The position numbers and the translations under genes were made by a program. A DNA stretch of 26,330 bases, from assembly GCA_020629335.1 (NCBI GenBank), contig JAHDDN010000017.1:1-26330 (forward strand). Direction: 5' to 3'. Every line of letters begins with the position of its first letter. Within the stretch, counting starts at the first letter, position 1. This DNA is from Chitinophagales bacterium (GTDB taxonomy: Bacteria; Bacteroidota; Bacteroidia; Chitinophagales; UBA2359). The notes under the pieces were generated by a model, which saw only the letters and a list, made by a program, of their open reading frames with translations, was not told the origin of the DNA and made no database searches. Shown piece after piece: positions 2,750 through 25,750 of this stretch.

Positions 2750-3290
2750 GCAGTATTCCATCAACGACATAGAGCCTTTATTGCTTTCAAAGACTTTGGA
2801 GCAATTAAGTGAGCAGGAGCGTGGCTTTTTGCAAGCGCATTTAGGCAAGGAGGAGCAAATTTTAGCTTATCAGCAGATGTTGCAGATGAATAGAATGTTC
2901 TTAGATGCTAATGAGATGCCTGTGGTGCGCCCGAAGGAGTCTATACGTCTGGCAATAAGGGCTAAGATGATTCAGAAACAGACGCCACAAAAGAAGGGTT
3001 TTGAAGCGATCTTTATGAGTTTGTTTGCTTGGATGTCTATTAAGTCACCTGTTTATCGTACGAGCTTAGCTTTGGTAATGATGATGGCGATGGCTTGGTC
3101 AGGTTCTTATAACAGTATTGTAGGGGAGCGAGGCGTATTATTAACAGATACCTTATCGAGAAGCATTAATGTCCCTGTGCGAGTATTAGCAGATTCTAAT
3201 AATCGTCATTCAGCTAAGCCAACTCAATGGCGGGGTTTAGACAGCTTTAGTGTGAGAAGTAATATGGGGGATTTATTTAGAAGACAGTAA
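2733..3290 (+). CDS. Putative membrane anti-sigma factor
   Basis: A 185-residue protein with no family I can name from motifs. Residues 1-60 are helical and acidic/polar (LSKTLEQLSEQERGFLQAHL), followed by a Pro-Arg linker near 63-75. A single hydrophobic stretch at about 108-123 (SLALVMMMAMAW) is a likely membrane segment, and a polar tail of about 60 residues follows. The N-terminal helices in the cytoplasm, one TM segment and a short extracytoplasmic tail match the general plan of anti-sigma factors. The gene overlaps the ECF sigma gene by 17 bp, which strongly suggests that it holds that sigma factor at the membrane. No zinc HxxxCxxC motif of the ZAS class is visible. Function is inferred from layout, not from recognised sequence. 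Confidence 0.65.
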   Translation: MIQMDRQYSINDIEPLLLSKTLEQLSEQERGFLQAHLGKEEQILAYQQMLQMNRMFLDANEMPVVRPKESIRLAIRAKMIQKQTPQKKGFEAIFMSLFAWMSIKSPVYRTSLALVMMMAMAWSGSYNSIVGERGVLLTDTLSRSINVPVRVLADSNNRHSAKPTQWRGLDSFSVRSNMGDLFRRQ

Positions 3291-3331
3291 GCCGAGTTGA
3301 CTTGAATCTAAAATTAAAGTTAAACAATATA

Positions 3332-3369
3332 AAAAAAGCCCGCTACTCAATTGAGTAGCGGGCTTTTTT
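3332..3369. terminator. Perfect bidirectional Rho-independent terminator
   Basis: A 38-bp perfect palindrome (19-bp arms, centre between 3350 and 3351). The GC part, GCCCGCTACTCAA, is flanked by A-runs on the left and T-runs on the right, so either strand gives a hairpin followed by U-residues. It lies 42 bp past the anti-sigma gene stop and 28 bp from the stop of the convergent type B sorted protein gene, so it serves both. Confidence 0.95.
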
Positions 3370-3396
3370 GTTTTTAATTAGAATCTATCAACACTT

Positions 3397-5397
3397 CTAT
3401 TTTGCGAATTGTATAATACCGCTTAATACTTGTGCTATTTGAGTATCTTGTTTTACTTTTAAACGGTAACAATACATTCCAGTATTGGCATTGAAAGTAG
3501 TGTTTGCATTCCAAAGTGCGTGAATATTAGCTTCTTTGTTTTGATAAACTAATTGTCCATTTAGATCATATACCTCCAACTCATAAGTTGCGTTAGGATA
3601 ACAATTGTCTAATTGAGGCAAAGCAAAATTATCATTGAATCCATCGCCATCAGGGCTTAGCATTTGATTACTTCCTTTTAGGCAGTCTGTATCTAATTCA
3701 TTCGCATTTTGTTGTTTGAATTGATCTCCTCCATCTTGCATTCCGTCAAAATCGCTACAATCTCCTACAAACATTGAGATAACGGTATCTCCACAATTGC
3801 CAGCTGCATCGCAAGCAGTGACTGTGATTTCTTCATCGCCTACAAAAGCAGGAAGTGGTAGATAGGTGAAGCAATTGCTTGCTTCTTCTTCATTGATGCT
3901 GCATTCATAAAGCGTGTTGACCTGAACGATTTCAACATCTGTACCTAGTTGACAATCGTTGATACAAATTTCGATTGCTGTCATTTCTTCTGTACAAAGG
4001 TTTTGCGTGTTAAAGCATTCTTGAGTTACGTCTATTGTAACAGTGCCTATATCGCACATATTATCGCTATCACAAATTTCGTAAGTGAAGCTATCAGTGC
4101 CTGTGAAGCCGCTGTTAGGTGTATAGGTAAATGCGTTGAATTCATTGAAAGTAACGGTACCAGCTTGTGGCATAGTAAAGTTCGTGATAGAGAAGGTATC
4201 TCCATCAGGGTCAAAATCATTATTGACCACGACTATACTTACTCCATTGCCTGTTGTACTAGCGTTATCATCAGCAGCAACTGGAGGCTGATCTACTAAA
4301 CAAGTTTCAGAAACCAGCATATTTACGATTACAATCGCACAATTATTATTGCTATCACAAGCTTCAATTTCTAGTGTTTCACTACCTAAGAAACCAGGAA
4401 GAGGTGTATAAGTAACACATCCATTTTCATTGAAAAGGCTGCAAGGATAAAGCACTGATACATCTGTAATTTCGGCATCAGATCCTATGTTACAAAAATC
4501 AGGACAAATAAGGATTGGCATGATAGGCTGCGTACACATGTCCATGATATCATCACAAAGGCTTGGCTCTGGATCAGGATCAGGATCAGGATCAGGATCA
4601 GGATCTGGATCAGGATCTGGATCTGGATCTGGGTCTGGGTCCGGATCTGGCGCATCTGGATCATCTTCTGTATATACTTGAATATAAACAGTAGCGATGT
4701 CTGTCATCTCATCTTCGTCTACTCCATAGTAAGTAAAAGAATCTAAACCATAAAAATCAGGATTAGGCGTATATACTAATTCATTACCAACTTGAACGAC
4801 TGTTCCATTAGTAGGTTGGTTAAATTCAAATATAGTAACAATACTACCTTCAGGATCAGAATCATTGATAAGTACTGGCATATCAATAGGCTGATTGACT
4901 AAGGTAGCATATACGTCATCTACTACGTCTGGTTCATAATTACAATCAACTAATTTGAATTCTGCCCCTTCCGTATCAAGAGCGGCACAAACATCTCCGC
5001 CACCCTGAATTAATAATGAATTGACGTCAGAGATAGTACTTGTCCCTAAAGCTATGTTATTTAAATTAAAAGTTGCCGGATCATAAACCAAAGCATGTAT
5101 ATTAAAGTATGCTGGGTCGTCTGGTCCTAATGCTGTCATTGGCCCGAAAGTCGGGGTGTTGCCCAAATCAATAATGACTTGGCTATCAGTTAAGGTTACA
5201 AAGAATATTAGTTCATAACCTAGGGGTATACTTGGGGCATCTAGCTCTATGGCTTTGATATAATTACCAGAGCAAAGCTTATAAATATCGTGTTCCCATG
5301 CTCCTGCATCAGCCTCACAATTATCTTGTGCCATCAAGGGGATACTCAACCAAAGACAACACATCCATGCAAAGAGGATGGTATTGATCTTTCTCAT
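3397..5397 (-). CDS. Large secreted protein with cadherin-like and Cys-rich repeats and T9SS type B sorting domain
   Basis: 666 residues. A signal peptide spans 1-24, ending in LMAQ. An N-terminal region with few cysteines (about 25-155) is followed by a cadherin-like repeat (about 156-242, DVVDDVYATL...NDSDPEG...YTPNPDFYGLDSFTY) and a rigid Asp-Pro linker of about 14 dipeptides (about 250-277). Next come a Cys-rich domain (CTQPIMPILIC...CNIGSD...YPCS...GCVTYTPLPGF...ACDSNNNC), a second cadherin-like repeat (AADDNASTTGNG...GFTGTDSFTYEICD) and a second Cys-rich copy (CTEEMTAIEIC...CQLGTD...). The last 85 or so residues start with LSPDGDGFNDNF, the signature of the type B (CHU_C, 'gliding motility-associated') sorting domain, so T9SS export and surface attachment are expected. 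It is transcribed alone and converges with the sigma/anti-sigma pair. Likely role: surface adhesin or matrix protein (inference). Confidence 0.9.
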   Translation of the reverse strand: MRKINTILFAWMCCLWLSIPLMAQDNCEADAGAWEHDIYKLCSGNYIKAIELDAPSIPLGYELIFFVTLTDSQVIIDLGNTPTFGPMTALGPDDPAYFNIHALVYDPATFNLNNIALGTSTISDVNSLLIQGGGDVCAALDTEGAEFKLVDCNYEPDVVDDVYATLVNQPIDMPVLINDSDPEGSIVTIFEFNQPTNGTVVQVGNELVYTPNPDFYGLDSFTYYGVDEDEMTDIATVYIQVYTEDDPDAPDPDPDPDPDPDPDPDPDPDPDPDPDPEPSLCDDIMDMCTQPIMPILICPDFCNIGSDAEITDVSVLYPCSLFNENGCVTYTPLPGFLGSETLEIEACDSNNNCAIVIVNMLVSETCLVDQPPVAADDNASTTGNGVSIVVVNNDFDPDGDTFSITNFTMPQAGTVTFNEFNAFTYTPNSGFTGTDSFTYEICDSDNMCDIGTVTIDVTQECFNTQNLCTEEMTAIEICINDCQLGTDVEIVQVNTLYECSINEEEASNCFTYLPLPAFVGDEEITVTACDAAGNCGDTVISMFVGDCSDFDGMQDGGDQFKQQNANELDTDCLKGSNQMLSPDGDGFNDNFALPQLDNCYPNATYELEVYDLNGQLVYQNKEANIHALWNANTTFNANTGMYCYRLKVKQDTQIAQVLSGIIQFAK
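4571..4648. repeat. Hexamer microsatellite GGATC(A/T), 13 units
   Basis: Thirteen consecutive hexamers inside the 666-residue gene encode its Asp-Pro linker on the minus strand. The five units at the low-coordinate end are identical (GGATCA). Units toward the other end vary (GGATCT, GGGTCT, GGGTCC). Each change keeps the Asp-Pro reading, and a gain or loss of units would keep the frame. Eleven of the units contain a GATC site. Confidence 0.97.
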
Positions 5398-5598
5398 TTC
5401 CTATCTATTTAATCAAATGAAAAATTATACATACTGATAAGTTTTAAAACCTCAGATGTATACTTAAAATGCTATCACTAAAAATTTGGTGGATACTTAA
5501 TGGCTACTGCTGGTATTGCAAAAACCAATCCAAACCTCAATTGCTTAATGATAGTTGGTGCTTAATATGGGCATAACAAAAGTCATTCTTTATGATAA

Positions 5599-5775
5599 TG
5601 AACTCATTTAAAGTTTTCCTACTGGCTTAGAAAATGGCTGTTTTTCCGTATTTCTTCGTTATTTTTTCGGTCCGTAGCCCTGCTATGCACCTCAAAAATG
5701 CCTTGAACTACGAAAAAACAGCTAATCCTTACAGGACAGGCTTTCAGCTTCATTATAAAACTTTAAATGAGTTCA
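5599..5775 (+). repeat. R2 palindromic element, copy 1 (full length, 177 bp)
   Basis: Perfect 19-bp terminal inverted repeats, TGAACTCATTTAAAGTTTT and its complement, flank an inner stem: GCTGTTTTT at 5637-5645 pairs with AAAAACAGC at 5714-5722. The apical region carries the conserved core TTTCTTCGTTA...GTAGCCCTGCTATG and AAAAATGCCTTG. The whole unit can fold into one long hairpin. Copy 2 is at 14409-14568, an internally deleted copy at 13610-13659, and a core-sharing relative with different arms at 25361-25521. It contains no reading frame of note. Confidence 0.93.
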
Positions 5776-6040
5776 ATAAATGACTCTTAAAAAAAATATC
5801 GGGCTGAAATAGTTTGGGAAACTAAATTGCCATAGCCTAGAAGGCTTACATAATAGACATTAATCACGATATTAGTGGAAAGTCTTATTATATTAACACA
5901 TGTATTGTGAATTATTTGCAATTATTCAAAAATCAAAGGGGGAGGGTGTTAATTATACGTGTGGCGTCAAAAAAAAGTCACTTATTAGCGCTATCTTGAG
6001 AGAATGAAATTTTATTTTTCATCTATCCCATACTTATATG

Positions 6041-13609: not shown

Positions 13610-13659
13610 GAACTCGTTTAAAGTTTTTCAGTTTCTATCATAAAACTTTAAATGAGTTC
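13610..13659. repeat. R2 element remnant: arms only (50 bp)
   Basis: GAACTCGTTTAAAGTTTTTC at 13610-13629 faces AAAACTTTAAATGAGTTC at 13642-13659. These are the terminal arms of the R2 element with the 110-130 bp interior missing. The arms differ at one base, giving a G-T mismatch, unlike the full copies. It lies 23 bp upstream of the obg start codon and just past the adk terminator. Confidence 0.88.
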
Positions 13660-14408: not shown

Positions 14409-14568
14409 GAACTCGTTTAAAGTTTTTCTGCTGGCTTGGAAAATGGCTAATTTTACGTATTTCTGCGTTATTTTATTGGCCCGTAGCGCTGCTATGCACC
14501 TCAAAAATGCCTTGAACTACGAAAAATTAGCGGATTTTCAGCTTCACCATAAAACTTTAAACGAGTTC
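14409..14568 (+). repeat. R2 palindromic element, copy 2 (160 bp)
   Basis: Terminal arms GAACTCGTTTAAAGTTTT and AAAACTTTAAACGAGTTC pair perfectly. Compared with copy 1, A in the left arm became G and the paired T in the right arm became C. The inner stem GCTAATTTT (14446-14454) pairs with AAAATTAGC (14523-14531), where copy 1 has GCTGTTTTT and AAAAACAGC, again matched changes. The apical strand from CTGCTATGCACC to CTACGAAAAA is identical to copy 1. Confidence 0.93.
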
Positions 14569-14589: not shown

Positions 14590-14807
14590 GGCTTAGGGAT
14601 GGCAGCGGTATGTGGCGTCCATGCAGCGACTTACGTAGCTTAGTGATGCGATGGCTGGCTTTAGCAGACAAGCAGCACTTAGCGTAGTAGGAGCGGCATA
14701 GCCACATGAGAGCGGACAGCCCGACCCATTTCTTATTTTTCATCGGAGGGCGCACACATAGGTAGCGCCCCTACGGTCCGATGAAAAATAAGAAATGGGG
14801 AAGCCCC
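14590..14807 (+). repeat. R1 structured repeat, copy B, with extended tail
   Basis: Same block order as copy A. TATGTGGC (14609-14616) pairs with GCCACATG (14701-14708), and the internal hairpin is GCT-TT-AGC. After GACAGCCCGACCC the copy runs into a long palindrome (14725-14799) and returns to GGGGAAGCCCC at 14798-14807. In copy C these two ends are joined directly by GAA. Confidence 0.9.
14725..14799. repeat. 23-bp perfect palindrome enclosing an R3 hairpin
   Basis: Arms 14725-14747 and 14777-14799 are perfect inverse complements (left arm starts CCCATTTCTTATTTTTCATC). Between them lies the hairpin GGGCGCACACATAGGTAGCG...CCCTACGG (14748-14776), the second copy of the unit at 1715-1740. The structure sits in the tail loop of R1 copy B. 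Confidence 0.95.
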
Positions 14808-16698: not shown

Positions 16699-19600
16699 AT
16701 GTTTTTGAATAGACACACAAATATATACACTAATTACCATCTTTGGATACCCTTTGTTTTTGTTTTGACCCTATTGAATTTAAGTTTATTAGGGCAAGTG
16801 CAAGCAGAAGATGATAGTGTGAATGCTTTTACGAGTGTACCTTTGGTTATAGATGCTTTATCTAATGACCAATCAGGTATCAGTGTATCATTGGATGCTG
16901 TTTCAGTAGTAGCTGAGAACGGTTCGGTGGTACTAAATGGGGATGGTATGTTGGAGTATTTGTCGGTCCCATTTTTTGTAGGGGAAGATTCCTTTAGCTA
17001 TTGGGCTTGTGATGATGCAGGTAATTGTGATGAGGGCTTAGTTACTATTGATATTTCTTACTCTCCTTTTTGTACATCTCCAGCGACTCAGACTTATAAC
17101 GAAATGATTTACACTCATTTTTGTGATGATGCCTCGGTATTAGTCATTCCAAGTGTGGGTTATGAGCTATTGCAGGGGCAAGTACGTAATTATATTTTGC
17201 ATACTAATGATTTGTTGCATCCAGATGATGTATTTCATACTTCTTCGTCTTATGCGATACAATTGAATAGTGTCTCTAACTTATTGACTAATCAGTTATA
17301 TTATGCTACGGTGGTAACGGGGCCAGATTCAGGAAATGGAGTGGTGGATTTAAATGATCCTTGTTCGAGAGCTTCTATGTCGATTCCTTTTATTGCTTTA
17401 GAGTGTTTAGAAGCAAACTATAGCATCTTGTACGAAGAAGGAGATGATTTCTATAGTGTTTTGTTGAGTCCAGCTGGTGGAATGCCTTTATATGAAGGTT
17501 CTGAATATCAAATATCAGGTGTTTGGACAGGGAATTTAGCTGCTGGTGAAACTATTGAGATAGAGATGCCTTTAGGCGATTGTTTTATATTTAATGTAGA
17601 AGATAGTTCAGGTGAAATCGTTTCGACTTTCTATACTTGTCCTCAAGTAAATGATGCTCAGGGGGCTTGTTTGCCTATTTATGCGGATGTTTCTAATTGC
17701 GATAGTCTTTCTTATAATGTCGTTTATCATTTGGATGAAGTATTAATGAATGACTTGGGATTAGATTTAGCGGATGATTTTGCTTTAGAGAATTGGAGTG
17801 ACGATACCTTTATAGGGAATTATACCTTTGGTGATCTGCCGATTACTTTCGGTCCTTTTGACGTAGACTTTGGTAATGGTTATACAGATAAAACAAAGTG
17901 GTTTGCTATCGGTGATTCCTGCTGGTATTATTACGAGTTTGGTTCTGAAAGCTGTTTTCCGCTTCCAGTTCCTTCCACTTGTTTATCAAGTCCTGGTACT
18001 GTTGCGAGTGATACCTTATACGTTTGTGGAGATGAAACAATCACCATTGAGTCAGACGCACCCTATATTGGCCCAGGAGATTTCTTAACTTATGTCTTAC
18101 ACTCTGGTTCAGGAGATAATTTAGTCAATACCATTATCAGTAATCAGGATGGTGAGTTCAATGTAGATGATCATCCTAATATTCAAAAAAATCAAGTTTA
18201 TTATATATCACCAGTGATTTACCCTTATGATCCGATCTTTCAGGCGGATTGTAGTGAGTCAGGAGTTGGTACACCAGTAGTTTTTGTAGATCCTCCAGTC
18301 TTTGATGTGGAAGATAATTTCTACTGCTATTGGACAACGGAAGATTGTGAGAATTTTGTAGAGTACAAAGAAATATTTGTCACGATAGATGGAGGTACCT
18401 TGCCTTATAGTTATGAGGGGAATATCAATGGTTCTCCAGTGAGTGGAATTACTTATGATGGGACAATCAGTTTGGGTACCTATATTGGTTTTGGTCCTGA
18501 TATCAGAATCCATGTAAATGATGCAGAATATGAGTGCTCTTTTTATTATGAGAGCTTGTATAATTTCTGTACGCCTTTTGTAGCAGAAAATACTCCTTTC
18601 ATTGGTGCTATGCCTAATGAACCTTTAGTGGCTTGTGCTGATGAGGCTATCAGTGGGATAGCGTCCTGTATCAATAATGTGTCGAGTAGTTTGCTAGTTG
18701 GTTATGTTTTACATAGCAGTCATAGCGGTGCTTTAGGAGAAGTCGTCGCAGTAAGCACTGATGGTACTTTCTACTCTTCTGATATAGGAGAGTATACTGG
18801 GCCTTTATATTTATCTGGAGTTATCATTAATAATACGGTTGATGGACTTGATATCTTACTGGATGATAGTTTAGAAGCTGGGGTTTATTCCGTAGCTAAA
18901 GGAACACCAGTGTTATTTTTAGAAGATAACTGTAATGTGATTGCTGGTATTGATGATTACTTTGATGCTTTATCCAGTACGGAGATAATTTTAGATGTAT
19001 TGGCGAATGATTTTATTCCAGATAATATAGATGCTACGATCAGCGCTTTGGAAACAAACAGTTCTAATGGGACCCTTAACATAGCTGTTGATGGCTTAAG
19101 TTTGATCTATACAGCGAATGACTATTTTGAAGGAACTGATAACTTATCTTATATCCTTTGCGATACCAATGACCCAAATAACTGTGACACAGTAGAGGTG
19201 GTAATCAATGTAGCTTTTGCCTGTCCTTCTAATCCTGGTAGCATGCCTAGTGATATTATTCCTTTATGTGAAGGAGATGGTTTTGCAGTATCAAGTATGG
19301 GGGGACAATTAATTGCAGGAGATACTAAAGCTTATGTTTTACATACAGAGGAAAGTAATTTCTTAGGAGATGTCATTGCTATTTCTACAGATGGAAACTT
19401 TGATTATCCGGCAGAGCTTTCAGAGGGGGAAACCTATTATGTGTCAGCTGTAACAGGCCCAATGGATGCTAATGGAGAATTGGATTTAAACACTTCCTGT
19501 ACAATAGTAGCTGAAGGTACACCTTTATATTTATTATCTTCATTAGAAATTTTATCTACTTATACCTATAATGGGTATGCAGTAACAGATTGTGGAATTA

Positions 19601-22600
19601 CTCATTCTTATGATATAGCCTTATTTGTAGATGGGGGTTATCCTGCTTATAATAATGGGTATTATGAACTAAGTGGTGATATTAATGCAACAACTTTTGC
19701 CAATCAAGTAGTGAACGCAAGTGCAGAAGGAGATAACAATACAAGTGTTTCCTTTTCTATCTTAGATAACTTTGGTTGCTCAGCTGATTTTACAATAGAT
19801 TTAACAGGCAATCCAACATTTCAATATGCTGATATAAGCTTGAATCAAACAAATATAAATATTAATGCAGCGACTGACTTTAGTGTTAGTACGGATTGTG
19901 TATTAGTAGAAGGATATACTGAATATCAAGTAGGTTACGCCTTATTTACGGATAGTAATGATTGGCAGTCAAGTGTCATCGCAATTAATGAAAATGGTAA
20001 TTTTAGTGCAGAAGATTTAGGATGTAATAATGCATTTTATGTGATTGGAGTAATCAGTAATGGAAGTAGCCTTAATACAAATGATGTAATTACAACTTCG
20101 GCTATAGTACCTGTTACGATTAATGGAGGAGGTAGCTCACTAAGTGTAAGTAATAACTTTGAGTGTATTTCTGAGCAAAATGCTTGTGATTATATTACGG
20201 GTTTATCTCTTAGCTGGAATATTGAGAATGGCCAAGCTCCTTATGAAGTACTTTTTACTTTTGCTGGTGAAACAACGAGTTATTCTTTAGAATCTAATGA
20301 GTTGAATTTGGGTCCATATTATTATGAGTATGCTGCTGATTTGAATACGACCTATTCTATGTCAATTGTTGATGCATTGAACAATTGTTATGAAGTAAGT
20401 GATTTGCCAATTTATTGCGAATACAATCAAAATCCAACTTTCTTAGGCGATATTTCTAATGCTAATGATTCTTACTATTTATGTCCAGATGATACTCCAC
20501 TTTCCCTTTCAGTAGATTGTATAGGAGAGTGGATGCCAAATGCCAATGAGTATGTATTAGCTTACATCTTACATACTGTTCAAGATAATAGCTTGGGTGA
20601 TGTCATCAGTATCAATACGGATGGGATTTTTGCTTATGCTGATGGAATGAATAATATAGCTGAAGCGCTATTTATATCCGCAATTTATGCCCCTAATGAT
20701 GGAAGTGGGAATCCACAATTGAACGACTTAGTAGCTCAAAATATTAGCTTTGGTCCAAGTATTACTTTTGTACAAAACTGTAATATTGTCAATGCTAATG
20801 ATGATTTGCTTAATGTAATTATTGCTGAAGCAACAACAGTAGATCCGATTCAAAATGATACGGATGAGCTAGGACTAGGTTTAGAAATAACGGAAGTAAC
20901 AACTGCGCCAAGCAATGGTACTTTTACTTTAGAAAATAATATAATTACTTATACCTCTAATGATGATTTCATAGGAGTAGACTTTTTGATTTATACAGTA
21001 TGTAATGGAGAAGGATTCTGTGATAGTGCAGGAATCTATTTTCAAATTACAAGCTCTAATGTATCACCAGTAGCTACTGATGATATCGTATATATTGGTT
21101 ATGAAGATGTCATGCCAAGCGATACCTTAATCAATATATTAGCCAACGATTATGATCCTAATAATGACTTATTAAGCGTTAATATCATAGACGAAAATGC
21201 TAACCTAATTAATAATAATGATGGTACCACTACTTATATTTTAAGTGGAGAAACGACAGAAGTATATACCTATGTGATTTGTGATGCAGGTTTACCAGTA
21301 TATTGTGATACAGCAACTCTAAGTATAACAGTGGAAAATCTAAATGAAGCGCCAGTAGCCCTTGATGATGCGATAGAAATCGTTTATGATAATGCAGCTC
21401 CAGTTGATACTACTTTCAATATTCTTGCGAATGATTCGGATAGTAATGGAGATATTTTATCTGTATCAATATTAGAGGCTAACACTTTAGGTACAGTGCT
21501 TAATAATGAGGATGGTACGATCACTTATATAGTGAATGGAGAAACAGAAACAGCTGATATATTCGAATACGTTATCTGTGATGATGGAAGCCCTGCTTTA
21601 TGCGATACTGCTAATGTTAGCGTAAACGTAAGTAATATCAATGAGGCACCCATTGCTGTAGATGATGTGTTGAGTGTAAGTTATGATAATGCTCCACCAA
21701 CAGATTTATTAATTGAAGCATCTGCCAATGATAGCGATCCAAATGATACTGCTGCCGATTTGGTATGGAGTATCTTAACACCGCCATCCACTGGCGAAGC
21801 AATCAATAATAATGATGGCAGCTTTACTTATATGATAAATGGTGCAGGTTCCTTTAGTTTCACTTATACCTTATGTGATGATGCCACCCCAGCCTTATGC
21901 GATACGGCTACGGTAAATATAGAAATTCTAAACACGAATGAATCGCCTATTGCATTAGATGATGCGGTCAGTGTGAGTTATGATAACACACCACCAACCA
22001 ATGTTTTAATCGAAGCATCTGCCAACGATAGTGATCCCAATGATACTGCTGCCGATTTGGTATGGAGTATCTTAACACCGCCATCTACTGGCGAAGTCCT
22101 TAATAATAATGGTAGCTTTACTTATTTCACAGATGGTGCTGGTGACTTTAGTTTCACTTATACTTTGTGTGATGATGGAACACCAGCCTTATGCGATACG
22201 GCTACGGTGAGTATAGAAATTCTGAACACGAATGAATCGCCTATTGCATTAGATGATGCGGTCAGTGTGAGTTACGATAATACACCACCAACCAATGTTT
22301 TAATCGAAGCATTCACAAATGATAGTGATCCAAATGATACCGCTGCCGATTTGGTATGGAGTATTTTAACACCACCATCCACAGGCGAAGCAATCAATAA
22401 TAATGATGGTAGCTTCACTTATGTTACTGATGGTGCTGGTAACTTTAGTTTCACTTATACTTTGTGTGATGATGGAACACCAGCCTTATGCGATACGGCT
22501 ACGGTGAGTATAGAAATACTCAATACAAATGAATCGCCAATCGCAGTCGATGATGCGGTTAGTGTGATCTATGATAATGCACTACCAACTGATGTTTTAA

Positions 22601-25353
22601 TCGAAGCATTCGCAAATGATAGTGATCCAAATGATACAGCCGCCGACTTAGTATGGAGTATCTTAACACCACCATCTACAGGCGAGGCGATCAATAATAA
22701 TGATGGTAGCTTTAGCTATATCACAGATGGTGCTGGTGACTTTAGCTTCACTTATACTTTGTGTGATGATGGAACACCAGCCTTATGCGATACGGCTACG
22801 GTGAGTATAGAAATACTCAATACAAATGAATCTCCAATTGCAGTCGATGATATCGTCAGTGTGAGTTATGATAATGCTCCGCCAACAGATATATTAATCG
22901 AAGCGTCCACCAACGATAGTGATCCAAATGATACAGCCGCCGACTTAGTGTGGAGTATCTTAACACCACCGTCTACAGGCGAGGCGATCAATAATAATGA
23001 TGGTAGTTTTAGCTATATCACAGATGGCTCAGGCGATTTTAGTTTCACATATACTTTATGTGATGATGGTACACCAGCGCTTTGTGATACGGCAACAGTC
23101 AATATTGAAATCCTCAATACAAATGAATCTCCAATCGCAGAAGATGATGTGGTGAGTATTTCTTATGAAGATGCTCCTCCTACAACTTATAACATAATAG
23201 TCCTATCTAATGATAGCGACCCCAATGATGATATAGTAGATCTTACTGTTAGCTTATTAAGTGAAACAACACAGGGTACGATAGTACTTAATACAGATGG
23301 CACATTCACTTATACACTCAATGGACAAACGGAAGGTACAGCAGATGTATTCACTTACATCTTATGCGATGATGCCACACCAGCCCTTTGTGATACTGCT
23401 ATGGTCGCAATAGAAGTAATCAGCACAAATGAATCGCCAATTGCTACAGATGATTACTTAACCATTACCTATTTAGATTATCCTCCAGTGGATACGCTAA
23501 TCAATTTGTTAGCGAATGATAGTGATGCTAATAATGATGAATTAAGTGTCACTATTCTATCTCAAAATGGAGTAGGGGCAGCAACTAATAATGGAAATGG
23601 TACACTGACTTATACGCTTAATGGTTTAACAGATGCACCAGACTTAATCACCTATGTGCTTTGTGATGATGCAATACCGAGCTTATGTGATACGGCTGAT
23701 CTCTATGTAGAAGTAATCAGCTTAAACGAAGCACCGATTACAGCTTCAGATAGTATTTATTTGACTTACTATACGGATGCAGAATTACCAGAAGCCATCA
23801 CTATTGATGTGTTGGCTAATGATAGCGATCCAAATGATGATGTCTTAATAGTTGGTGTGACAACTCAGCCAAATATAGGAAGTATCGCTAATAATGGTGA
23901 TGGTACGATCACCTATACCGCTGCTGATGGTAGTGATGGCAGTATGATCATTGCCGACTTAAGCGTCTGTGATGATGCCATACCTGCGGCTTGTACAGAT
24001 AGTGAAGTGTACATTATGCTTTGCCCAATGGAAGTCCCAGTAGCTACTATTATAGAGGAGGAAATTATGCAAGGCTCAGAAGCATTATATAATTTAGGCT
24101 TAGCAGATACAGAGTCTTTATACGACTTCATCATTAATACACAGCCTGAACATGGCGAAATTAGTTTGTCAGGAGACGGAGCGGTTTATTATGAACCTTA
24201 TGATTATTTCTATGGTAATGATAGTTTCACCTTCACTTTCGCCACTTATGAAAACTTTGATAATTGCCCAATCGTTGATCAACTACAATATGAGGTCGAA
24301 GTAACAGAAAACTGCGAAACATGGTCTTGTGTATGGCCAGGTGATGCCAATAATGATGGCTTGGTAAACAATCATGATTTCCTTTCTATTGGAGTAGGAT
24401 ACGACTATACAGGAGATACTCGTTGGCAAGCATCCCTTGATTGGGAAGAACAAGCTATTCCAGATTGGGACGGCAATTTTGAAGATGGAGATAATCACAA
24501 ACATGCTGATTGTAATGGTGATGGAGTGATTAATCACGATGATATGTTGGCCATCGTAAGTAACTACAGCTTCGTACATGGCAAAACGGGTGATGAAGAA
24601 TCAGACGAACCAGAAACCGTCATCTATTTTGAGACGATCAATGAGACCATCAATGCCAATGATACAGTCTTTATGCGTATCATGTTAGGCTCTGAAGAAT
24701 ATCCAGCAGAAGATATTTATGGGATCTCATTTAGTGTCAACTATGATAGTACAATGGTAGTCGAAAATTCCTTTGAAGTAGACTGGGAAGGTTCTTGGTT
24801 AACTGAAGGTACCACTGATATTTCCTACTTCAATAATTTTATAGATGACCAACAATTAGACTTTGCACATGGCCGTACAGATCACGAAGAAGTGTCAGGT
24901 ATAGGTCAAGTAGGTACCTTATCCTTCACGATTACCTCAGTAGATAATTTAATCGGTAAAACGGAAGAAGGCATTGCCTCATTAGTCATGGACTTCAATA
25001 GTATATTAGCCATAGATCATCTCGAAAACGAAATTATTGTTTACGGAGAGGCAGATACTACAGAAATTGTCGGTATAGAAGACTTCGTCTATTTGGACAA
25101 TAACGAAAAAATAGAATTCTATCCAGTGCCAAGTCAAGACGTCTTATTCATAGAATCGACTGATATTAACTTAAAAGAAATAGATGATTTATTCATCACC
25201 AATATCGCTGGACAACAAATTCCAGTGAATATAGTCACTCAATATAGCCACCGCATTCAGCTCAATATGAGTGCATTCAATGCAGGCGTCTACTTCTTAC
25301 ACCTGCAAACAGACTCAGGCATCCTCACTAAGCGAATCCTAATATCTAAGTAA
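16699..25353 (+). CDS. Giant T9SS-exported multirepeat adhesin with dockerin-like and cohesin-like domains
   Basis: 2884 residues. A hydrophobic segment about 17-34 ends in GQVQA and acts as a signal peptide; the mature protein starts at once with a cadherin-like repeat (to about 120). Residues about 130-1370 hold six spaced copies of a unit built on Y(V/I)LHT...LG-x-V-(I/V)-(A/S)-(I/V)...DG-x-F, interleaved with other beta domains and one cadherin-like repeat. Residues about 1454-2440 hold ten tandem cadherin-like repeats of 98-102 residues, each with NDSDPND-like calcium-type turns and a C-DD-x-x-PALC-D pair. Then come another Ig-like domain, WPGDANNDG with two dockerin-type loops (about 2548 and 2604), a cohesin-like domain (about 2638-2785) and a type A sorting domain (about 2797-2884, starting KIEFYPVPSQD). 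Expected to be an extended, calcium-stiffened surface adhesin (inference from domains). Confidence 0.93.
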   Translation: MFLNRHTNIYTNYHLWIPFVFVLTLLNLSLLGQVQAEDDSVNAFTSVPLVIDALSNDQSGISVSLDAVSVVAENGSVVLNGDGMLEYLSVPFFVGEDSFSYWACDDAGNCDEGLVTIDISYSPFCTSPATQTYNEMIYTHFCDDASVLVIPSVGYELLQGQVRNYILHTNDLLHPDDVFHTSSSYAIQLNSVSNLLTNQLYYATVVTGPDSGNGVVDLNDPCSRASMSIPFIALECLEANYSILYEEGDDFYSVLLSPAGGMPLYEGSEYQISGVWTGNLAAGETIEIEMPLGDCFIFNVEDSSGEIVSTFYTCPQVNDAQGACLPIYADVSNCDSLSYNVVYHLDEVLMNDLGLDLADDFALENWSDDTFIGNYTFGDLPITFGPFDVDFGNGYTDKTKWFAIGDSCWYYYEFGSESCFPLPVPSTCLSSPGTVASDTLYVCGDETITIESDAPYIGPGDFLTYVLHSGSGDNLVNTIISNQDGEFNVDDHPNIQKNQVYYISPVIYPYDPIFQADCSESGVGTPVVFVDPPVFDVEDNFYCYWTTEDCENFVEYKEIFVTIDGGTLPYSYEGNINGSPVSGITYDGTISLGTYIGFGPDIRIHVNDAEYECSFYYESLYNFCTPFVAENTPFIGAMPNEPLVACADEAISGIASCINNVSSSLLVGYVLHSSHSGALGEVVAVSTDGTFYSSDIGEYTGPLYLSGVIINNTVDGLDILLDDSLEAGVYSVAKGTPVLFLEDNCNVIAGIDDYFDALSSTEIILDVLANDFIPDNIDATISALETNSSNGTLNIAVDGLSLIYTANDYFEGTDNLSYILCDTNDPNNCDTVEVVINVAFACPSNPGSMPSDIIPLCEGDGFAVSSMGGQLIAGDTKAYVLHTEESNFLGDVIAISTDGNFDYPAELSEGETYYVSAVTGPMDANGELDLNTSCTIVAEGTPLYLLSSLEILSTYTYNGYAVTDCGITHSYDIALFVDGGYPAYNNGYYELSGDINATTFANQVVNASAEGDNNTSVSFSILDNFGCSADFTIDLTGNPTFQYADISLNQTNININAATDFSVSTDCVLVEGYTEYQVGYALFTDSNDWQSSVIAINENGNFSAEDLGCNNAFYVIGVISNGSSLNTNDVITTSAIVPVTINGGGSSLSVSNNFECISEQNACDYITGLSLSWNIENGQAPYEVLFTFAGETTSYSLESNELNLGPYYYEYAADLNTTYSMSIVDALNNCYEVSDLPIYCEYNQNPTFLGDISNANDSYYLCPDDTPLSLSVDCIGEWMPNANEYVLAYILHTVQDNSLGDVISINTDGIFAYADGMNNIAEALFISAIYAPNDGSGNPQLNDLVAQNISFGPSITFVQNCNIVNANDDLLNVIIAEATTVDPIQNDTDELGLGLEITEVTTAPSNGTFTLENNIITYTSNDDFIGVDFLIYTVCNGEGFCDSAGIYFQITSSNVSPVATDDIVYIGYEDVMPSDTLINILANDYDPNNDLLSVNIIDENANLINNNDGTTTYILSGETTEVYTYVICDAGLPVYCDTATLSITVENLNEAPVALDDAIEIVYDNAAPVDTTFNILANDSDSNGDILSVSILEANTLGTVLNNEDGTITYIVNGETETADIFEYVICDDGSPALCDTANVSVNVSNINEAPIAVDDVLSVSYDNAPPTDLLIEASANDSDPNDTAADLVWSILTPPSTGEAINNNDGSFTYMINGAGSFSFTYTLCDDATPALCDTATVNIEILNTNESPIALDDAVSVSYDNTPPTNVLIEASANDSDPNDTAADLVWSILTPPSTGEVLNNNGSFTYFTDGAGDFSFTYTLCDDGTPALCDTATVSIEILNTNESPIALDDAVSVSYDNTPPTNVLIEAFTNDSDPNDTAADLVWSILTPPSTGEAINNNDGSFTYVTDGAGNFSFTYTLCDDGTPALCDTATVSIEILNTNESPIAVDDAVSVIYDNALPTDVLIEAFANDSDPNDTAADLVWSILTPPSTGEAINNNDGSFSYITDGAGDFSFTYTLCDDGTPALCDTATVSIEILNTNESPIAVDDIVSVSYDNAPPTDILIEASTNDSDPNDTAADLVWSILTPPSTGEAINNNDGSFSYITDGSGDFSFTYTLCDDGTPALCDTATVNIEILNTNESPIAEDDVVSISYEDAPPTTYNIIVLSNDSDPNDDIVDLTVSLLSETTQGTIVLNTDGTFTYTLNGQTEGTADVFTYILCDDATPALCDTAMVAIEVISTNESPIATDDYLTITYLDYPPVDTLINLLANDSDANNDELSVTILSQNGVGAATNNGNGTLTYTLNGLTDAPDLITYVLCDDAIPSLCDTADLYVEVISLNEAPITASDSIYLTYYTDAELPEAITIDVLANDSDPNDDVLIVGVTTQPNIGSIANNGDGTITYTAADGSDGSMIIADLSVCDDAIPAACTDSEVYIMLCPMEVPVATIIEEEIMQGSEALYNLGLADTESLYDFIINTQPEHGEISLSGDGAVYYEPYDYFYGNDSFTFTFATYENFDNCPIVDQLQYEVEVTENCETWSCVWPGDANNDGLVNNHDFLSIGVGYDYTGDTRWQASLDWEEQAIPDWDGNFEDGDNHKHADCNGDGVINHDDMLAIVSNYSFVHGKTGDEESDEPETVIYFETINETINANDTVFMRIMLGSEEYPAEDIYGISFSVNYDSTMVVENSFEVDWEGSWLTEGTTDISYFNNFIDDQQLDFAHGRTDHEEVSGIGQVGTLSFTITSVDNLIGKTEEGIASLVMDFNSILAIDHLENEIIVYGEADTTEIVGIEDFVYLDNNEKIEFYPVPSQDVLFIESTDINLKEIDDLFITNIAGQQIPVNIVTQYSHRIQLNMSAFNAGVYFLHLQTDSGILTKRILISK
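17161..20775 (+). repeat. Six dispersed copies of a 'YVLHT' protein repeat
   Basis: Within the giant gene, copies lie near 17161-17400, 18070-18290, 18685-18930, 19315-19545, 19915-20130 and 20540-20775. Shared order: Y-(V/I/A)-L-(H/F)-(T/S), then LG-x-V-(I/V), then (D/N)G-x-F, then a Y-(Y/V)-x-(S/I/T)-x-V strand, often GP-x-(D/S)-(A/G)-NG-x-(V/L)-DLN, then GTPVxF. Copies 3, 4 and 6 are closest to one another. Each is preceded by a strand starting (L/V)xxCxD/G. I know no accepted name for this unit. Confidence 0.8.
21640..23121 (+). repeat. Five near-identical 297-bp tandem repeats
   Basis: Units start at 21640, 21937, 22231, 22528 and 22825 (297, 294, 297, 297 and 297 bp; one codon is missing in the second). 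They encode 98-99-residue cadherin-like domains. The central part NDSDPNDTAADLVWSILTPP is the same in all five, and DNA identity is high even at silent sites. More diverged units flank the block: two before (from about 21060 and 21343) and three after (23122, 23428, 23725). Confidence 0.97.
24340..24573 (+). other. Dockerin-like calcium-loop pair within the giant protein
   Basis: Two loops with the dockerin/EF-hand pattern DxNxDGxxxxxD: DANNDGLVNNHD (residues from about 2549) and DCNGDGVINHDD (from about 2604). Each is followed by a hydrophobic helix (FLSIGVGYDY, MLAIVSNYSF). Unlike classical dockerins, which have about 10-20 residues between the repeats, the two loops are separated by about 44 residues rich in Trp, Asp and Glu, ending in KHAD. 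Confidence 0.8.
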
Positions 25354-25360
25354 ATTCGTT

Positions 25361-25521
25361 AGTGAAATAGAAGAAATAAAATGAGCCAAATTAAATGCCA
25401 TATTTTTGTCTGTTTTTAGGCAAAAAAATGTTTCATAGCAGGGCTATGAGACCATTTTTTTAACGAAGAAACAGGCAAAAAGATAAGGCTTAATGGTTCA
25501 GTTTATTTATTTTGTTTCACT
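25361..25521 (-). repeat. R2-like palindrome with unrelated arms (copy 4)
   Basis: Outer arms AGTGAAATAGAAGAAATAAA... and their approximate complement ...TTTATTTATTTTGTTTCACT pair with some mismatches. Inner stem TTTTTGTCTGTTT / AAACAGGCAAAAA and CAAAAAAATG / CATTTTTTT enclose CATAGCAGGGCTATG. On the minus strand the core TTTCTTCGTTA...CATAGCCCTGCTATG matches R2 copies 1 and 2, while the outer arms do not resemble theirs. Confidence 0.8.
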
Positions 25522-25525
25522 TAGT

Positions 25526-25585
25526 TAGTAGAATAGTATATTAGTTAATTAGTAGCATCTAATTAACCGATATACTAATCTGCTA
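25526..25585. repeat. AT-rich hairpin, 27-nt arms
   Basis: Arms 25526-25552 and 25559-25585 pair at 23 of 27 positions around the loop TAGCAT. The arms contain GTATAT and GTTAATTAG. It is AT-rich and has no T-tract, so it is not a clear terminator. Confidence 0.8.
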
Positions 25586-25596
25586 TTTTATTATCT

Positions 25597-25750
25597 GGGG
25601 CTTCCCCTTCGGGTCGGGCTGTCCACTCTTATGTGGCTGTTCGGCAGCTACTTCACTAAGGCATCCTTGTCTGCCTTTCAGGCCAGCCTACGGCTACCTA
25701 AGTTCCGTAAGCTCCCTCTCGACGCCACATACCGTTCCCATCCCTAAGCC
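25597..25750 (-). repeat. R1 structured repeat, copy C
   Basis: Reverse-oriented copy of the element at 1779-1917 and 14590-14807. On the minus strand: GGCTTAGGGATGG, GGTATGTGGCGTC, CTTACGGAACTTAG, then the internal hairpin GCCT-GAA-AGGC, GCAGACAAGG, AGCCACATAA, GGACAGCCCGACCC, GAA, GGGGAAGCCCC. The tail CCC-GAA-GGG is a short hairpin where copy B has a long one. Confidence 0.9.

Follow-up and report, generated by a model that had tools for sequence, protein, structure and literature searches.

A palindromic, gene-less element family of near-fixed length in Bacteroidota, most likely a MITE of the IS5 type

Described systems and the copies in the window

Several described repeats resemble the palindromic element treated here (R2), and the following comparisons reach as far as the accessible text of each report. 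BrickBuilt of Porphyromonas gingivalis (PMC4596501) is, like R2, a gene-less, multi-copy element of Bacteroidota, and its ends are nearly identical to those of a resident IS5-family element. However, BrickBuilt is minisatellite-based and has duplications of variable length (PMC4596501), whereas the R2 palindrome keeps close to 160 bp, has its tip in the centre, is flanked by 3-bp duplications and occurs in distant genomes. The ERIC/IRU sequences (PMC2229807) share with R2 a long imperfect palindrome of near-fixed length (127 bp), a mostly intergenic location and stable stem-loop transcripts. They belong to enterobacteria and have 7-bp ends with a TA motif (PMC2229807), whereas R2 belongs to Bacteroidota, is about 160 bp long, and has IS5-like ends of 12-20 bp and 3-bp duplications. 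MITECca01 of Cardinium (PMC9769881) is also a Bacteroidota MITE with the ends of a resident IS, but it is about 240 bp long, of the IS982 family, and confined to a single strain (PMC9769881). The REPs with GTAG or CGTC tags (PMC3733652) are likewise repeated intergenic palindromes; they are 20-40 bp long with the tag at one end (PMC3733652), whereas R2 has inverted ends and target duplications.

Other bacterial MITEs are highly variable in size (PMC10969869) or limited to one strain or genus (PMC9769881) according to the accessible text, and that of a 2024 review of prokaryotic MITEs (PMC10969869) contains no word starting with Bacteroid or Flavobacter. The literature searched, outside which most subscription papers lie, held no description of the R2 family, its core or its length rule in the text available. 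An IS5-type MITE is itself known; the near-fixed length, the centred tip, the spread over distant Bacteroidota and the lineage-specific ends look new.

The window, that is, the whole stretch of 26,330 nucleotides that was analysed, contains the following R2-type features.

5600..5774, minus strand: R2 copy 1, full element, 175 bp (model R1, 114.9 bits, minus strand)
5597..5599, no strand: target duplication AAT left of copy 1 (flank read)
5775..5777, no strand: target duplication AAT right of copy 1 (flank read)
13610..13659, no strand: R2 copy with an internal deletion, both ends only, 50 bp (model R1, 36.2 bits)
14409..14568, minus strand: R2 copy 2, full element, 160 bp (model R1, 117.3 bits)
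25362..25520, no strand: element sharing the R2 architecture but with different ends (GTGAAA..TTTCAC), 159 bp (architecture only)

A sequence-only reading of the window had described two full palindrome copies with matched arm changes, and both were present when the sequence was checked. Its limits were exact for copy 2 (14409-14568) but one base too wide on each side for copy 1 (5599-5775). The terminal pairs (CTCATTT/AAATGAG versus CTCGTTT/AAACGAG) and the inner-stem pairs (GCTGTTTTT/AAAAACAGC versus GCTAATTTT/AAAATTAGC) stood as quoted, and Pfam scans of 15 of the 34 ORFs of at least 60 aa (the other 19 being short) agreed with its description of the window as transposase-free. The near-invariance of the apical strand, also reported there, held for the two window copies but not for the wider set A1 described below, in which the tip alone was nearly constant.

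Copies 1 and 2 both start with GAACTC and finish with GAGTTC, and the minus-strand left arm of copy 1 carries about 15 extra nt that include a small palindrome. Both copies are among the 45 rows behind model R1, and their own scores are thus scores on training rows. When folded with DNA parameters against dinucleotide shuffles, copy 1 had a z of -7.7 and copy 2 a z of -7.0 (0 of 200 shuffles folded as well in each case). No ORF of at least 60 aa was listed inside the two full copies. Copy 2 is flanked by TTT/TCT (one mismatch) and the 50-bp copy by GAT/GAT. The earlier reading had included neither these flanks and those of copy 1 nor the 50-bp copy and the element at 25362-25520. Since the GAT flanks are intact although the 50-bp copy is devoid of the hairpin interior, the interior may be dispensable for insertion. 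The ends of this copy, CTCGTTT/AAATGAG, show an incompletely matched arm change (G.T). Unmatched arms, which the earlier reading had named as evidence against its proposal, thus occur in single copies (13610-13659 and L013, with CTCG/TGAG ends), while matched changes prevail beyond chance. By themselves the two window copies offer few matched pairs, and the strong evidence comes from their relatives.

The element at 25362-25520 is flanked by TTA/TTA and starts 8 bases past the stop codon of the ORF at 16699-25353. Its tip, CATAGC-AGG-GCTATG, lies at the exact centre with 72 nt on each side, and its RNA fold had a z of -11.7. The family model matched it weakly (9.8 bits, E 5.9), and it is placed in the R2 family by architecture only.

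Relatives, shared plan and insertion

Within the genome collection, a single locus had the exact core 21-mer; it belongs to Saccharicrinis aurantiacus (G001). The remaining relatives came from later similarity, pattern and model searches. At this locus (L002, about 1500-1550) the core is present, with no clear ends of the local kind, upstream of a reading frame that we take to be peroxiredoxin-like. The similarity search of 395 genomes of the phylum of G001 matched two, G001 and G112. In the family of G112 (60 genomes, E 0.01), eight genomes had a match: full elements were found in G112 and G408 and ends in G434 and G191, and the other four gave short hits with no visible element. With one element as the query, at least 49 matches at no fewer than 41 distinct places were obtained in G112 (40 of 122 candidates scored), and at least 24 core matches and at least 14 end-only matches in G434 (40 of 149 candidates scored); G408 had no match to this query. 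G434 also carries a second kind of element (L021:1357-1519, L021:1891-2054 and L026), 163-164 bp long with GAACTC ends and 3-bp duplications, in which the tip CATAGC..GCTATG is centred and the arms differ from those of R2.

The pattern TTTTTN{4,7}CATAGCN{3,4}GCTAYG, with which one site may count twice where the T run permits, was found in 5 of the 395 genomes (48 hits in G112, 21 in G001, 6 in G235 and one each in G228 and G153, the last two being candidates only), and the backwards pattern used as a control gave four single hits. In G228, L072 (about 1500-1540) holds a single hairpin, CTTTTTCAGTTCATAGCAGCGCTACGGGCTGAAAAAG, with the family tip in a GC-rich context and with no ends in the stretch viewed. 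G270 was the best Obg match to the window (71% identity), and identity was at most 72% among the ten Obg hits with loci in the 395 sampled genomes. In the order of G270, the covariance model of 45 elements matched 7 of 201 genomes, no more than 14 candidates being scored in each: at least 14 matches in G523, where every candidate scored was a match, two each in G492 and G573, and one each in G598, G605, G626 and G640. Plasmid and phage records gave no match, nor did viral contigs scanned with one exact 21-mer. The repeat family proposed from the window is real, with numerous copies in some other genomes; because the genomes are few and the copies in some of them many, the family is patchy.

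In total, 67 elements (two from the window and 65 from 12 genomes) follow one plan, with inverted ends and a hairpin tip near the centre. This set consists of the 45 rows of alignment A1 and 22 rows found with a 160-position model built on A1, on which the length and homology of these 22 therefore lean; the element at 25362-25520 and the 50-bp copy were left out. A1 was extracted by the tip motif, ends starting with GA and a length of 130-185 bp, with copies of identical central 120 nt counted once, and 20 of the 65 extracted rows were then dropped. Thirteen of these repeated G434 elements in reverse orientation, four rows (three elements; L021, L026) belonged to the other G434 kind, which has GAACTC ends and its tip in the centre, and L002, L068 and L079 had doubtful limits. 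The extraction criteria themselves select the tip and GA ends of the 45 rows; for length, they admitted a wider range than was obtained.

The length was 156-164 bp in 65 of the 67 elements. The two exceptions, copy 1 (175 bp) and L059:1302-1475 (174 bp), both have a left arm lengthened by about 15 nt, and these additional bases make up a small palindrome. An ERIC/IRU identity was rejected on this length together with the GA ends and 3-bp duplications, as against 127 bp and TA ends. The strict tip motif, by which A1 was selected, occurred in 45 of the 67, and in A1 the side lengths about the tip differed by no more than 4 nt, the two long elements excepted. From the outside in, the layout comprises about 12 terminal-repeat pairs, imperfect arms, a T run opposite an A run, and finally CATAGC-NNN-GCTAYG as the tip; in the first 12 columns the ends were paired in 96.5% of cells. 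Group representatives had 53-90% of positions in common, and the plan of about 160 bp with a centred tip and paired arms persists between groups sharing only 53%.

Exact 3-bp target duplications were found at 44 of the 67 elements, duplications with one mismatch at 21 and with more at 2, compared with a mean of 5.9 and a maximum of 15 exact duplications in 10,000 shuffles. Furthermore, the element L073:691-853 of Saccharicrinis, bordered by ATT left and right, lies within a reading frame; in G006, of the same genus, the frame is uninterrupted, and the joined flanks of L073 read through in frame. A script for empty sites across the fetched loci found none. Among the genomes covered, the genus of G112 was represented by G112 alone, and in the genus of G001 (9 genomes, 8 besides G001) one of six junctions was spanned, in one genome. 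No overlap with an ORF of at least 80 aa was observed for 58 of the 63 copies having neighbours on both sides, and the family represents an unannotated source of strong intergenic hairpins in some Bacteroidota. A terminator-like role between convergent genes was considered and rejected, as 8 of these 63 copies lay between convergent ORFs, 40 between tandem and 15 between divergent ones.

Element ends and IS5 partners

The ends of the elements were compared with those of insertion sequences in the same genomes. G112 has an IS5-family ORF that matched NF033580 with 119.6 bits (curated cut-off 110) and the Pfam families DUF4096 and DDE_Tnp_1. The IS5-family ORFs of G112 are bounded by GAAGTGATTTAAACTTTTT and GAACTCATTTAAACTTTTT, and its elements have one end kind on both sides, either GAACTC.. 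or GAAGTG... For a third end kind, GAACTCATCTTGAC, no matching IS was found among those checked. In G523, a 948-bp IS5-like element shares its first 16 bases with the elements, is flanked by AGA/AGA and has no tip inside; its match of 52.7 bits is under the family cut-off of 110, and its gene is divided between two ORFs, of 141 and 135 aa, that overlap. The accessible part of PMC3196728 describes such a two-ORF layout in a Bacteroidota symbiont, in some of its IS5 elements. In G001, the end GAAGTTGTTTAAAGTTGTCT was found behind a piece of a transposase.

The mean number of mismatches per 16 bases between IS ends and element ends was 0.89 within G523 and 0.93 within G001, as against at least 2.5 with other genomes in both cases. 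Within G112 it was 2.32, compared with 1.5 for the window and 2.0 for G408; within G573 it was 2.0 (1.5 for three other genomes), and within G434 it was 3.15 (2.5 for three other genomes). These sequence comparisons suggest a lineage-wise match of the ends that is clear in G523 and G001, where the home fit was the best. In G112 and G573 the home fit was nearly the best and is compatible with such a match, which G434 did not show. An IS5-type partner was not found in 5 of the 12 element-bearing genomes (G235, G408, G598, G626 and G640). In the clearest genomes, the ends track the local IS5 lineage, and the plan of the middle is constant across distant groups.

The sequence-only reading had pointed to a REP-associated tyrosine transposase or an IS200/IS605-like gene as the partner. 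That the elements are REPs or REPINs moved by RAYT or an IS200-like tyrosine transposase would agree with their being palindromic, repeated and mostly intergenic; it is nevertheless scarcely credible in view of the terminal inverted repeats with 3-bp duplications, the length of about 160 bp and the ends resembling IS5 ends in several genomes, which contradict such a partner. The REP/RAYT identity was thus rejected on the target duplications and inverted ends; the length of about 160 bp also departs from the 20-40 bp of palindromes with a GTAG or CGTC tag at one end, and the elements showed no REP-like ends.

In place of a REP, the comparisons point to R2 being most likely a MITE of the IS5 type. 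We consider it very probable that R2 is a foldback MITE, mobile but gene-less and non-autonomous, that likely uses a host IS5 transposase and in which the hairpin is kept. The host transposase would act in trans on the element ends and insert the element at AT-rich sites, mostly between genes, with a stagger of 3 bp. The predicted partner IS5 in the genome of the window would have the ends GAACTC(A/G)TTTAAAGTTTT.

Pairing of the arms

In a mobile element such as this, matched terminal arms are simply its ends, and recognition by the transposase makes their covariation expected. The informative parts are the inner arms and the tip. In A1, the 16 pairs of the ends and tip were paired in 97.4% of cells, with 96 double-changed cells against 27.4 in shuffles and a covariation score of 0.392 against 0.171; sliding the structure lowered pairing to 31-47%. 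The number of pairs with a double change, 8 against 7.2, was not higher than in shuffles (182 of 500). For the full hairpin of 50 pairs on alignment A2, whose structure was derived from the alignment it is tested on and is favoured by this, 19 pairs had double changes against 12.5 in shuffles (0 of 500). A2 contained 88 double-changed cells among 1093, compared with 30.4 in shuffles, and scored 0.242 compared with 0.118; the double changes occurred in all six helices, and no excess of further pair types over shuffles was seen (275 of 500). The tip also varies with compensation in the order of G270, from C-G to G-C and from C-G to A-U.

Pairing energies were compared among 17 group representatives. 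For inner arms the energy was -23.4 kcal/mol when each was matched to its own counterpart and -13.2 when matched to one from another group, and 12 of the 17 groups had no foreign arm as good. The ends had -20.3 with their own and -10.2 with foreign partners, and for them 6 of the 17 groups were without an equally good foreign end, because several groups have ends in common. With the outer 20 nt removed, the inner part of 21 representatives folded with z from -1.1 to -5.5. Within six near-copy groups, 34 double Watson-Crick cells were counted against about 9 doubles of any kind under independent change, and a stricter pair set over seven groups gave 42 double cells against 17 other doubles. The covariation is real and spans the whole hairpin. 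The matched arm changes that the earlier reading had noticed in two copies thus exceed chance in alignments with shuffle controls, and the two causes that it had offered, selection of the hairpin or copying of one arm from the other, are still the right pair, although they are not separated.

Since both ends must fit one transposase, the outer pairs are explained. For the inner arms, covariation could arise solely by mutual copying, with the replication fork switching template at the palindrome and the hairpin being without benefit. Hairpins are reported to arise and to be repaired through template switching (PMC8794818, in its accessible part), a process that quasipalindrome work in E. coli has also addressed. 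The small palindromes of about 15 nt inserted in the left arms of copy 1 and L059 fit such switching, and the isolated double changes (36 of 42 cells) could also result from the mending of one mismatch. On the other hand, adjacent double cells were only 6 of 42. Double changes were rich in transitions (23:8) in comparison with single changes (94:77, p 0.050) and with unpaired sites (78:67, p 0.045), both weak tests, and this richness fits stepwise compensation via tolerated wobble pairs. In a further weak test, paired sites changed more slowly than unpaired ones in six of six groups. We therefore give copying alone an appreciable chance that nevertheless falls short of even; between hairpin selection and arm-to-arm copying by template switching, which are unseparated, the data lean weakly to selection. 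The family provides natural replicates for the upkeep of pairing in palindromes, by selection or by template switching, and for how MITEs follow transposases.

Selection on one transcribed strand was also considered, in which R2 would be a strand-specific structured RNA, acting as a regulatory or processing hairpin and mobile only incidentally. As RNA, the strand with the core TTGCATAGC..GCTACGG had the better fold of the two strands in 59 of the 67 elements, which are related and thus not independent, and its advantage averaged 12-21 kcal/mol in G112a, G434, G235 and G001. ERIC hairpins affect mRNA stability in an orientation-dependent manner (PMC2229807, accessible text). However, the window, G573 and G626 showed no core-strand folding bias, recent single changes had no clear bias (55 G.T against 39 A.C events, p 0.12), and no Rfam family matches an element. 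The window had no match in Rfam 15 at the gathering score; with 10 sources at E 0.5, three weak window hits appeared near 3262-3412, none of them on an element. This explanation appears distinctly improbable.

Returning to the foldback MITE, pairing would be retained because both ends must suit one transposase, and perhaps also because the long hairpin is useful in itself, either in the RNA of read-through transcripts or in extruded DNA. Pairs are possibly restored with the help of template switching at the palindrome. A stronger form, which we regard as unlikely though somewhat less so than the strand-specific RNA, is that the 160-bp hairpin functions in its own right as a structured nucleic acid, a passenger distributed over distant Bacteroidota, with length, symmetry and centred tip under selection and with ends that adapt to the resident IS5 transposase. 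If true, the mobile family would be defined by structure and not by sequence, and its folded RNA or extruded DNA would aid its own transposition or host gene control.

Several other features were observed in the window. A GC-rich repeat of about 130-150 bp occurs in three copies (1783-1917, 14590-14727 and 25611-25750), two on the plus strand and one inverted, which are 77-93% alike in the aligned pieces; two of these copies lie less than 100 bases from an R2-type element. A perfect 23-bp inverted repeat with a 29-bp spacer (14725-14799) adjoins the GC-rich repeat, and another inverted repeat (25526-25585), whose 27-nt arms (85%) enclose a 6-nt loop, lies directly behind the element at 25362-25520. 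Between genes, a 30-nt AT-rich inverted repeat at 3321-3380 is terminator-like in appearance, and 3262-3412 gave sub-threshold Rfam hits to L10_leader and Thr_leader. The ORF at 16699-25353 encodes a 2884-aa protein with bacterial Ig/cadherin-like repeats and a Por_Secre_tail sorting domain, and the DNA repeats D1-D6 are 297-bp units of this ORF.
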